Below are positions 12,322 to 14,526 of a DNA stretch of 64,000 nucleotides, in pieces (the first letter of the stretch is position 1; each line of letters opens with the position of its first letter). Source of the DNA: an uncultured Saprospiraceae bacterium (GTDB taxonomy: Bacteria > Bacteroidota > Bacteroidia > Chitinophagales > Saprospiraceae). The notes under the pieces are model-generated. The model searched no databases. It had not been told where the DNA came from and saw only the letters and a program-made list of their open reading frames with translations. Made by a program: the position numbers and the translations under genes. The stretch is taken from positions 1 through 64,000 of the forward strand of contig CALLXF010000026.1 of NCBI GenBank assembly GCA_938015805.1, given 5' to 3'.

Positions 12322-13440
12322 ATGAACCCATTCTTTATACAACAATATGGTGGACCAAAGTTTTTCTGTGATAGAGAAAAAGAAGTTGCCAGACTGATAG
12401 AATCCGTTACTAATAACAGGTCCCTCATGTTACATTCTATGAGAAGACTCGGCAAGACTGGTCTGATACATCATCTACAGTATTATCTCAAAAAAAAACA
12501 TAAATACACTTGTGTATATCTAGATATCCTAGATACCGATTCTGATGAATCCTTTGTAAACCAATTTATAAACGCTTGTATTTTAACTCTTTTCGACGAC
12601 CAAGCCACTATACTTACTAAAATCACAAACTACTTTGGGAAATATAAACCAAAGTTAAGTATCGATACCCTCACAGGAAATCCCAGCATAGAACTAGACA
12701 TAAAAACAAATAAAGAAGTCGAACTCAGCCTAGACGCAACTTTTAAATTACTCCGTTCTTCTAAAAAACCCATACATATCGCCATTGACGAATTCCAACA
12801 AATAGGTCAATATCCATCCACAAAAATAGATGCTACTATACGTAAACACCTAAGCCAAACTAAAAATGTAAAAATGCTATTTAGTGGAAGCCAGCGGCAT
12901 CTGCTATTAAGCCTCTTTAATAACCCTAAAAAACCAATGTTCGGGTCTGTAGAGCAAATGGAACTTTACGAAATTCCATATCCCAAATATTCTAAATTTA
13001 TACATAAGATGTTCCACAATGGTAAAAAAAATATTGACGAAAGAGTCATCCATAATATTCTTAAATGGACCAGATCTCATACCTTTTACACGCAATATGT
13101 CTGCAATAGATTATACGCTTTAAACAAATCAAGCATCAAAGAAATCGACTTGTATAGAATGCAAAAACAAGTGCTTAATGAGATGCAGATGACCTTCCTA
13201 AGCTATAGAAATATACTTTCTAAAAATCAGTATACTGTACTTAAAGCGATAGCAACAGAATCCTCCGTAAAAACAGTTCGATCCAAAGACTTTACTTCTA
13301 GTTACAATCTAGCCAGTAGTACCGCACAACAGTCATTAGAATACCTTGTAGACAAAGAACTTGTCTACGAAAAACTTACAGAAGAAGGAAAAGAATATTT
13401 TGTTTACGATCTTTTTCTATCTCGATGGCTAGAAAAATAA
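12322..13440 (+). CDS. AAA ATPase of the archaeal-type/MNS group, unknown role
   Basis: 372 residues. Residues about 15-50 contain a Walker A variant (SMRRLGKTGL) where the first glycine is replaced, as is common in this group; Walker B is HIAIDEFQQ (about 153-161). The sensor-1-like segment MLFSGSQRHL follows. The C-terminal part (about 290-372) looks like a winged-helix domain (SYNLASSTAQQSLEYLVDKELVY). This layout matches ATPase_2/archaeal-type ATPases of the STAND/MNS class, often linked to mobile or defence loci, but no effector gene is adjacent, so no defence claim is made. It lies alone behind a repeat-bearing promoter and is convergent with the tRNA gene. An A9 run in codons 58-60 is a possible slippage site. 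Confidence 0.82.
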   Translation: MNPFFIQQYGGPKFFCDREKEVARLIESVTNNRSLMLHSMRRLGKTGLIHHLQYYLKKKHKYTCVYLDILDTDSDESFVNQFINACILTLFDDQATILTKITNYFGKYKPKLSIDTLTGNPSIELDIKTNKEVELSLDATFKLLRSSKKPIHIAIDEFQQIGQYPSTKIDATIRKHLSQTKNVKMLFSGSQRHLLLSLFNNPKKPMFGSVEQMELYEIPYPKYSKFIHKMFHNGKKNIDERVIHNILKWTRSHTFYTQYVCNRLYALNKSSIKEIDLYRMQKQVLNEMQMTFLSYRNILSKNQYTVLKAIATESSVKTVRSKDFTSSYNLASSTAQQSLEYLVDKELVYEKLTEEGKEYFVYDLFLSRWLEK

Positions 13441-13484: not shown

Positions 13485-13519
13485 AAGAGACCCAAAGAAA
13501 TGAATCCTTTGGGTCTCTT
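13485..13519 (-). terminator. Terminator of the tRNA-Met transcript
   Basis: Perfect thirteen-base-pair stem AAGAGACCCAAAG (13485-13497) and its complement (13507-13519) with a nine-base loop. Read leftward it is followed by TTTTATTGTTATT, so it ends the minus-strand tRNA transcript five bases past the tRNA 3' end. It might also slow transcription from the convergent ATPase gene. Confidence 0.85.
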
Positions 13520-13524
13520 ATAAG

Positions 13525-13598
13525 TAGCGTGAGAAAGACTTGAACTTTCGACCTCAGCATTATGAATGCTGCGCTCTAACCAGCTGAGCTACCACGCC
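13525..13598 (-). tRNA. tRNA-Met (anticodon CAU)
   Basis: Minus-strand cloverleaf of 74 nucleotides. The acceptor strand GGCGUGG pairs with UCACGCU (two G-U pairs, at 1-72 and 7-66), and the D arm is GCUC/GAGC. The anticodon stem is CAGCA/UGCUG with loop UUCAUAA, anticodon CAU. The T stem is GAAAG/CUUUC with loop UUCAAGU, and the discriminator is A. CCA is not encoded. Body features fit elongator Met; a lysidine-modified tRNA-Ile2 is the alternative. It is transcribed alone from its own promoter with an unusually long repeated leader. Confidence 0.93.
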
Positions 13599-13742
13599 AT
13601 GTGGTTGCGAGGAGTTTATCCTGATAGCATCATCAGGAAGCTACCACGCCATGTGGTTGCGAGGAGTTTATCCTGATAGCATCATCAGGAAGATACCACG
13701 CCATGTGGAAAGCAGAGATTTATCCTGATAAATCATCAGGAA
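13588..13742 (-). repeat. Three tandem leader repeats, each carrying a copy of the tRNA 5' end
   Basis: A 52-base unit is present exactly twice (13588-13639 and 13640-13691) and a third, diverged 51-base copy follows (13692-13742). The first copy overlaps the first 11 bases of the tRNA, so each unit ends, on the transcribed strand, with the tRNA 5' sequence GGCGTGGTA. Every unit also contains the hairpin CCTGAT/ATCAGG and a CCAC-ATGGC-GTGG element that can pair with the acceptor strand copy. Together they form about 145 bases of structured precursor leader. Confidence 0.92.
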
Positions 13743-13803
13743 GCTACTCACCATTTTTCTTTTATCGATAAGTCTTTTACTTATCCCCTTTCTTACGGGA
13801 CGG

Positions 13804-13811
13804 CAAAGATA
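13804..13811 (-). promoter_or_regulatory. Promoter of the tRNA-Met transcript
   Basis: On the minus strand TATCTTTG is an exact TAnnTTTG -7 element, with a TTG 21 bases upstream in the -33 position. Transcription should start near 13797, which gives a leader of about 200 bases before the tRNA. The leader begins with a GATAAGT/ACTTATC hairpin, followed by the tandem repeats. Confidence 0.65.
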
Positions 13812-13854
13812 TAATTTTTACTTTTATACTACCAACTTTAAAATTATACAATTC

Positions 13855-14526
13855 ATGTTTTTTCCAGTAGGTGATGATCAAGTAATCGGTGGGCATAAGC
13901 CCCTCTTTTCGTATTCATTCCTGGTGATAAACATCCTCGTCTATATATTCCAGCTAACCTTAACGGAACAAGGCTGTAAAGAGTTTATGTATCAATATGG
14001 GAGTATACCCCAGGAAATCATGGCCGGACAAGATTATTTTACTCTTTTTACTAATATGTTTATGCATGCTGGATTCCTCCATATCCTAGGAAATATGCTC
14101 TTTTTATGGGTTTTTGCAGATAATATCGAATCCACAATCGGCAATATCTATTTTATTTTATTTTATATCATCGGTGGCCTTGCAGCTAGTGCGGCTCACA
14201 TTTATTTTAATCCCGGTAGTGAAATACCCACTGTCGGAGCCAGTGGAGCTATAGCTGCAGTACTGGGAGCATACGTAGTTTTATTCCCAAAAAATAATAT
14301 CAAGATCAGATTTTTGATTTTTAAGCCTTTTTCTATGATCGCTATTTTGTTCCTCGGAATCTGGTTTGCTCAGAATCTCTACTCTGGTATTGGTTCCATA
14401 GGCCCTAAAACTGCCCAATCTGGTGGCGTTGCTTGGTGGGCTCATATTGGAGGTTTTGTTTTTGGAGTGCTGATAGGATTTATCGCTAGATATAGTTTTC
14501 TTAAAAAGAAGGTAGAATTGGCTTAA
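13855..14526 (+). CDS. Rhomboid-family intramembrane serine protease
   Basis: 223 residues with six hydrophobic helices. The catalytic dyad is Ser130 in VGASGAIAAVLG and His197 in AWWAHIGGFVFG. The HxxxN motif HAGFLHILGNMLFLW (residues 71-85) is also present. It cleaves membrane helices inside the bilayer; substrates are unknown. The extension before the first helix (FFPVGDDQ) is typical of Bacteroidota members. Its last codons TTG GCT TAA lie in one of the dispersed 14-base palindromic motifs (14518-14531). Confidence 0.95.
   Translation: MFFPVGDDQVIGGHKPLFSYSFLVINILVYIFQLTLTEQGCKEFMYQYGSIPQEIMAGQDYFTLFTNMFMHAGFLHILGNMLFLWVFADNIESTIGNIYFILFYIIGGLAASAAHIYFNPGSEIPTVGASGAIAAVLGAYVVLFPKNNIKIRFLIFKPFSMIAILFLGIWFAQNLYSGIGSIGPKTAQSGGVAWWAHIGGFVFGVLIGFIARYSFLKKKVELA

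Follow-up and report, generated by a model that had tools for sequence, protein, structure and literature searches.

Introduction

Leader sequences of tRNAs are usually regarded as short and disposable, and tRNA genes are targets for the integration of islands and phages. Repeats that each carry a piece of a tRNA occur in the tyrT operon of Escherichia coli, where they measure about 178 bp, lie downstream of the gene and carry the 3' end of the tRNA. This tRNA transcription unit gives an additional RNA during processing, rtT RNA, represented in Rfam by the RtT family (PMC4986893, PMC2965389). Another system to which the present locus can be compared is that of the REP/BIME palindromes, in which the transposase TnpA-REP recognizes GTAG together with a hairpin and cuts at CT (PMC8266576). 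Here we describe a tRNA-Met gene preceded by three tandem units, each with a copy of the 5' end of the tRNA, a hairpin and a tail complementary to the 5' strand of that tRNA, and the recurrence of this design before other tRNAs. No description of such tRNA leaders was found in the open-licence papers searched.

Organization of the tRNA-Met Locus

All elements of the locus are on the minus strand of the window (the whole 64-kb stretch of DNA analysed) and follow one another in the transcript as TTG, 21 bases, TATCTTTG, a small hairpin, units A, B and C, tRNA-Met(CAT) and an intrinsic terminator. Each unit consists of P (tRNA nt 1-12), a perfect hairpin (TCCTGAT..ATCAGGA) and a tail, P', complementary to the tRNA 5' strand. 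The features are listed below, read directly from the sequence unless another basis is given.

13833-13835, minus strand: upstream promoter element TTG, exactly 21 bases before TATCTTTG
13804-13811, minus strand: Bacteroidota-type -7 element TATCTTTG of the tRNA-Met promoter; the stretch GTAAAAATTATATCTTTGC is kept in the same-genus genome G002
13767-13785, minus strand: small hairpin GATAAGT-aaaag-ACTTATC at the leader start (also in the predicted fold)
13703-13752, minus strand: unit A, 50 nt, the most diverged copy, with a degenerate P (GGTGAGTAGCT), hairpin TCCTGATGATTTATCAGGA and a tail ending in CCACAT
13651-13702, minus strand: unit B, 52 nt, with one change in P (GGCGTGGTATCT), hairpin TCCTGATGATGCTATCAGGA and a tail ending in ACCACAT
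13599-13650, minus strand: unit C, 52 nt, abutting the tRNA upstream, with P identical to tRNA nt 1-12, the hairpin and a tail ending in ACCACAT
13619-13638, minus strand: hairpin of unit C (TCCTGATGATGCTATCAGGA), 7-bp stem; over 14 loci the equivalent helix shows 98.8% pairing
13599-13605, minus strand: P' of unit C, ACCACAT, complementary to GTGGT of tRNA nt 4-8 (complementarity scoring and ViennaRNA)
13587-13598, minus strand: tRNA nt 1-12, GGCGTGGTAGCT, copied at the head of each unit (sequence repeats)
13524-13598, minus strand: intact elongator tRNA-Met, anticodon CAT (ARAGORN; Rfam RF00005, 67.7 bits)
13485-13519, minus strand: intrinsic terminator hairpin 3' of the tRNA (inverted repeat)
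12322-13440, plus strand: flanking gene, ATPase_2/AAA protein
13855-14526, plus strand: flanking gene, rhomboid-family protein

An earlier sequence-only reading of this DNA had pointed out the promoter with its TTG, the small hairpin ahead of the repeats (13785-13767 in transcript order) and a CCTGAT/ATCAGG stem in each unit, all of which were recovered. Its three repeat units also stand, with lengths of 50, 52 and 52 nt rather than the 52/51 it gave, and the segment GGCGTGGTA of the tRNA that it saw in each unit is indeed carried there, as part of a longer copy of 12 bases. The direct repeats are spaced 52 nt (13587-13638, 13639-13690 and 13691-13742), the first two being identical in that register and the third 63% identical; a single base, located in P, separates units B and C. 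The tails (ACCACAT, or CCACAT in unit A) are complementary to GTGG(T) of both P and the tRNA. The part added per unit is about 40 nt, without integrase or cargo, and the leader of this single-copy tRNA-Met amounts to about 205 nt. In most relatives the tRNA-Met gene has a TAnnTTTG element shortly before the tRNA, a promoter consensus that is also named in papers on Bacteroidota.

The arrangement exceeds chance expectation in the genome concerned. The 12-mer GGCGTGGTA[G/T]CT occurs three times in the 64 kb, always at the tRNA-Met locus; among the 30 tRNA loci of the genome, upstream copies of the own 5' end were detected for the elongator tRNA-Met only, and, this locus apart, the exact hairpin pattern was present at a single place in 3.6 Mb. 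The predicted fold of the transcript was better than 200 of 200 dinucleotide shuffles (z = -4.1).

Distribution of the Units

Copy number in close relatives, a comparison that the sequence-only reading had proposed, showed no unit before tRNA-Met in either of two same-genus genomes. In G002 the promoter stretch is shared and the neighbour reads as the same rhomboid-type gene, with a leader of 26 nt; in G001 the tRNA-Met leader measures 16 nt and a cassette is present instead at tRNA-Ala. Most relatives whose leader was read also have short tRNA-Met leaders. The array before the tRNA-Met of the window was probably gained recently, since in G002 the same promoter is followed by only 26 nt of leader. 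Contigs of G002 and of a further same-genus genome, G003 (L032, L033 and L034), end inside tRNA-Met, which suggests that additional partial copies of this tRNA broke those assemblies.

Scanning 84,980 species genomes for P directly followed by a TCCYG..CRGGA hairpin yielded 37 stretches, about two thirds of them from Bacteroidota and, in most cases, followed by an intact tRNA-Met 50-230 nt further on; several matches in other phyla, with no tRNA nearby, are probably due to chance. Two designs were distinguished. Type 1, carried by Saprospiraceae, two Flavobacteriales and others, contains P, the hairpin TCCCGA..TCGGGA, ACAGGCA(G)CTTCGC and P'. One carrier, L150, seems to be a cultured organism, the Flavobacteriaceae isolate 14752. 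In type 2, found in Prolixibacteraceae and other Bacteroidia, a TCCCGA..TCGGGA hairpin takes the place of the D loop and another that of the anticodon arm, and there is no P'; these units are about 92-125 nt long, some in tandem, and copy leader sequence as well as the tRNA.

Using a covariance model of type 1 on 396 genomes of the order, cassettes were detected before tRNA-Ala (twice in tandem in G367, and in G073 and G001), tRNA-Val (G251), tRNA-Arg (G322, with about five units) and tRNA-Met; unit C was the top match of the R1 model in the window genome. One further locus (L143), whose phylum label may be a binning error, has a cassette before tRNA-Phe, and among the matches listed for tRNA-Phe in 60 relatives no nearby partial copies were present. 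Specificity for tRNA-Met is ruled out by the cassettes before the Ala, Val, Arg and Phe tRNAs, together with the invaded copies of many tRNAs in G023. A narrow pattern of P repeated with a gap of 20-50 nt matched in only 2 of 396 genomes, being too narrow. Many of the loci come from metagenome bins, with contigs that end inside arrays.

A pattern restricted to the cassette core, which holds no acceptor-stem sequence, matched in 15 of 398 genomes of the family (4%), at one locus each, and its reversed control gave none. Every match was preceded by a tRNA-like 12-mer (tRNA nt 1-12), and an intact tRNA of the same kind lay directly downstream except at contig ends or at tRNA-Arg, where further units intervene; with this pattern no core was seen away from a tRNA in the 398 genomes. 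The core TCCCGA..TCGGGACAGGCA(G)CTTCGC precedes different tRNAs in different families. In the window it is diverged (TAAACTCCTCGC where the consensus has ACAGGCAGCTTCGC), and for this reason the window was matched by the covariance model and missed by the core pattern. The leaders of relatives, which the sequence-only reading took as one point on which its interpretation could fall, are of both kinds: some are short and plain, others hold conserved hairpins of the same design.

Interrupted copies of tRNAs were also observed in other arrangements. In G285, four tandem 52-nt units with a hairpin that replaces the D loop precede tRNA-Gly(gcc) (L166), and another unit stands before a second tRNA-Gly. 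In G023, copies interrupted by palindromes accompany many of the tRNAs; at two loci (L097 and L093) the intact tRNA-Val(gac) and tRNA-Thr(tgt) are each enclosed by the two halves of a pseudo-copy of themselves, the 5' half upstream and the 3' half downstream, and an inverted repeat links these halves (TCCCGTCTTTTT..AAAAAGACGGGA; TCCCGCTTT..AAAAAGCGGGA). Downstream of the intact tRNA-Met, palindrome-interrupted pseudo 3' halves occur in L037 (G041), L128 and L016 (G017), the palindrome being TCCGCC..GGCGGA in the first two.

Target Matching and Boundary of the Duplication

The tails match the tRNA before which they stand. Over 21 loci, the mean pairing energy of the tail with the 5' strand of its own tRNA was -10.3 kcal/mol, compared to -7.5 +/- 0.48 kcal/mol with those of the other loci, and none of 5000 permutations was as good, values that are not strictly probabilities because the loci are related by descent. 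Among the GGCG-type loci with the tail motif, a T at tRNA position 5 is accompanied by A in P' in 6 of 6 cases and an A by T in 7 of 8, a tally in which L122 and G474, both holding ACCAC and ACCTC, were read by eye. As MAFFT misaligns P', pair 5-57 is undercounted in the helix analysis and P' was scored separately. In the hairpin helix of the 14 loci analysed, two pairs were changed on both sides. In addition, there is a tendency for the bases ahead of TTC to match tRNA nt 14-16 (GCT/AGC, ACT/AGT, ATT/AAT), with gaps and exceptions (the window, L152); this match, which matters because nt 14-16 lie outside the unit, is suggestive only.

Where a single event could be recognised (12 loci), the repeat common to pseudo-P and the tRNA reaches no further than tRNA nt 1, the extra matches beyond it (0, 0, 0, 0, 0, 1, 1, 1, 1, 2, 2 and 3) being at chance level; in three loci with earlier copies the repeat extends further. 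Therefore, the duplicated target comprises nt 1-12 and its left edge is the mature 5' end. Both in the window and in L117, divergence is greatest in the copy at the largest distance from the tRNA, which is what repeated hits on the intact, re-created tRNA, or slippage working from the tRNA side, would lead one to expect.

These boundaries bear on the proposal that the tRNA start was simply duplicated in tandem and decayed, with template switching producing the hairpins and the inverted P', no mobile cassette being involved and the shared core having arisen by convergence or by recombination between tRNA loci. The near-identical tandem units of the window and of the tRNA-Gly locus in G285, the copying of leader sequence along with the tRNA in type-2 units and the palindrome-interrupted copies at many tRNAs of G023 are what such a process would leave. 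Nevertheless, the same core before different tRNAs in different families would be hard to reach by convergence, and the ends of type-1 copies fall precisely on tRNA nt 1 and are not scattered. Plain duplication is regarded here as an unlikely account.

Predicted Folding and a Possible Regulatory Role

The sequence-only reading had proposed that the element CCAC-ATGGC-GTGG could compete with folding of the cloverleaf, and the computed ensembles agree with it. For the bare tRNA, ViennaRNA predicts the native acceptor pair G4-C70 with near certainty. Its probability drops to 0.16 once one unit is placed in front and to about 0.04 for the full leader or for three units, since the 3' acceptor strand is then taken up by pseudo-P and the tRNA 5' strand by P'. 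The native and alternative folds are a near-equivalent exchange of helices, and therefore small errors decide between them; the co-transcriptional order would favour the formation of P:P' first, which is the harmless fold. Over 19 type-1 loci, native pairing averaged about 0.27 with the real unit versus about 0.03 when P was kept and the rest shuffled, and in several of them it was not reduced (0.90 in L150, 0.83 in L152). Type-2 units gave little or no rescue. In these models the decoy 5' end left by the event is probably sequestered by P', and neutralisation of the decoy would explain the covariation of P and P' without a regulatory role.

A regulatory role would be played by a cis-acting folding switch, in which P' and the bases preceding it keep the pre-tRNA from folding by pairing with tRNA nt 3-16, until pseudo-P competes for P' and releases the tRNA, the balance setting maturation. 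The complementarity of P' to its own tRNA, the tendency of the bases before TTC to match nucleotides outside the unit, the preference of the window ensemble for a misfolded state once at least one unit is present and the conservation of the hairpin with double changes are all consistent with this idea. It is difficult to reconcile with a patchy occurrence in 4% of the family genomes, the presence of the cassette at different tRNAs in sister genomes, type-2 units devoid of P', the type-1 loci with unreduced native pairing and the exceptions to the nt 14-16 match, and no ligand or signal is evident; we consider it improbable. Between the two interpretations put forward by the sequence-only reading, regulation of processing and scars of duplication, the scars are the better supported, given the patchy distribution, the different tRNAs concerned in close relatives and the absence of units at the tRNA-Met of same-genus genomes; the backing for decoys is computational.

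Known Elements Considered

In the Rfam covariance search of the leader only the tRNA reached the gathering score, with no T-box or RtT match, so that a known cis-regulatory RNA of that collection is not supported. A viral origin is not supported either, two pattern scans of viral contigs having given no match, and the plasmid matches span only about 24% of the query, which corresponds to the length and position of its tRNA.

The order GTAG, CT and hairpin before tRNA-Met fits the description of REP elements (PMC8266576), and palindromes of the form TCCCGAT..ATCGGGA are dispersed and common in some relatives. The cassette could in that case be a REP/BIME-type palindrome mobilized by a Y1 transposase (TnpA-REP), the tRNA happening to supply GGTAGCT before the hairpin. 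GTAG is indeed next to the palindrome at tRNA-Met, tRNA-Arg and tRNA-Gly; at tRNA-Ala and tRNA-Val, however, the sequence is TTAG or ATAG, the cassette core is confined to one locus per genome and the window genome lacks the dispersed palindromes. The Y1_Tnp domain (PF01797) was not found in the window genome (G000) nor in the carriers G001 and G455; G000 is 98.8% complete and a missed gene is possible. A dispersed REP palindrome was thus rejected for the window genome, and the REP reading, largely refuted here, has a very low probability.

Four relatives (G032, G012, G023 and G006) contain 28 to 53 dispersed palindromes TCCCGATnn..nnATCGGGA per genome, the reversed control giving 0-1; these are often the perfect palindrome TCCCGATAGCTATCGGGA.

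Proposed Insertion-Like Events at tRNA Nucleotide 12

The cassettes look like an undescribed tRNA-directed insertion. The reading that we place slightly on the probable side is that repeated, target-matched insertion-like events took place at tRNA nt 12, each duplicating 12 nt, and left removable scars in the leader. Each event, directly after nt 12 (..TAGCT^C), would leave one unit as its footprint, adding about 40 nt that comprise the hairpin cassette and a tail matched to the target; a templated duplication at nt 12 would be an alternative form of the insertion. As nt 1-12 would be duplicated, an intact tRNA gene would remain downstream and could be hit again. Repeated events, together with slippage between identical units, would stack the copies between promoter and tRNA, the tRNA-proximal one being the youngest. 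The leader would be transcribed from the promoter and then removed by RNase P, and the P' tail would find its pairing partner in P, the pseudo-5' end of the same unit, keeping the decoy off the 3' acceptor strand of the tRNA.

Several points count against insertion. A mobilising enzyme and a donor copy were not found; the cassette was never seen away from a tRNA in the genomes scanned, which leaves mobility without the support of a free or dispersed copy; units B and C are one base apart, so slippage alone could explain the copy number; and the core of the window is diverged from the consensus.

A more far-reaching proposal, which we hold tentatively and as somewhat doubtful, is that these units are a minimal mobile or self-propagating cassette family of Bacteroidota that targets the D-arm side of tRNAs by base pairing, or else a tRNA-matched leader switch that controls maturation. 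As a mobile family, it would bear a guide-like inverted segment (P' and the preceding bases) complementary to tRNA nt ~3-16, insertion would re-create the tRNA and copies would accumulate in tandem in tRNA leaders.

Comparison with Known Systems

Leader cassettes adapted to the tRNA behind them are present at several kinds of tRNA in one phylum. They may represent either a very small tRNA-directed element with a mobilising enzyme or an antisense leader that controls the folding of the pre-tRNA, and both possibilities bear on tRNA genes as integration hot spots and on how a tRNA folds in spite of decoy 5' ends.

With tyrT/rtT the locus shares tandem repeats that hold a piece of the tRNA, here placed between the promoter and the tRNA and presumably transcribed; it differs in that the repeats are about 52 nt long, lie upstream, carry the 5' end of the tRNA and have no RtT match. 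The resemblance to REP/BIME and TnpA-REP consists of a short hairpin after GTAG with CT at the junction, here at tRNA-Met only, whereas the cassette is undispersed, does not need GTAG at other tRNAs and is not accompanied by a detected Y1 transposase. As in the integration of islands and phages, the target is a tRNA gene and the duplication of 12 nt of target leaves an intact tRNA; unlike them, the added segment has about 40 nt, bears no integrase or cargo, lies at the 5' D-arm side and is absent from the viral contigs scanned.
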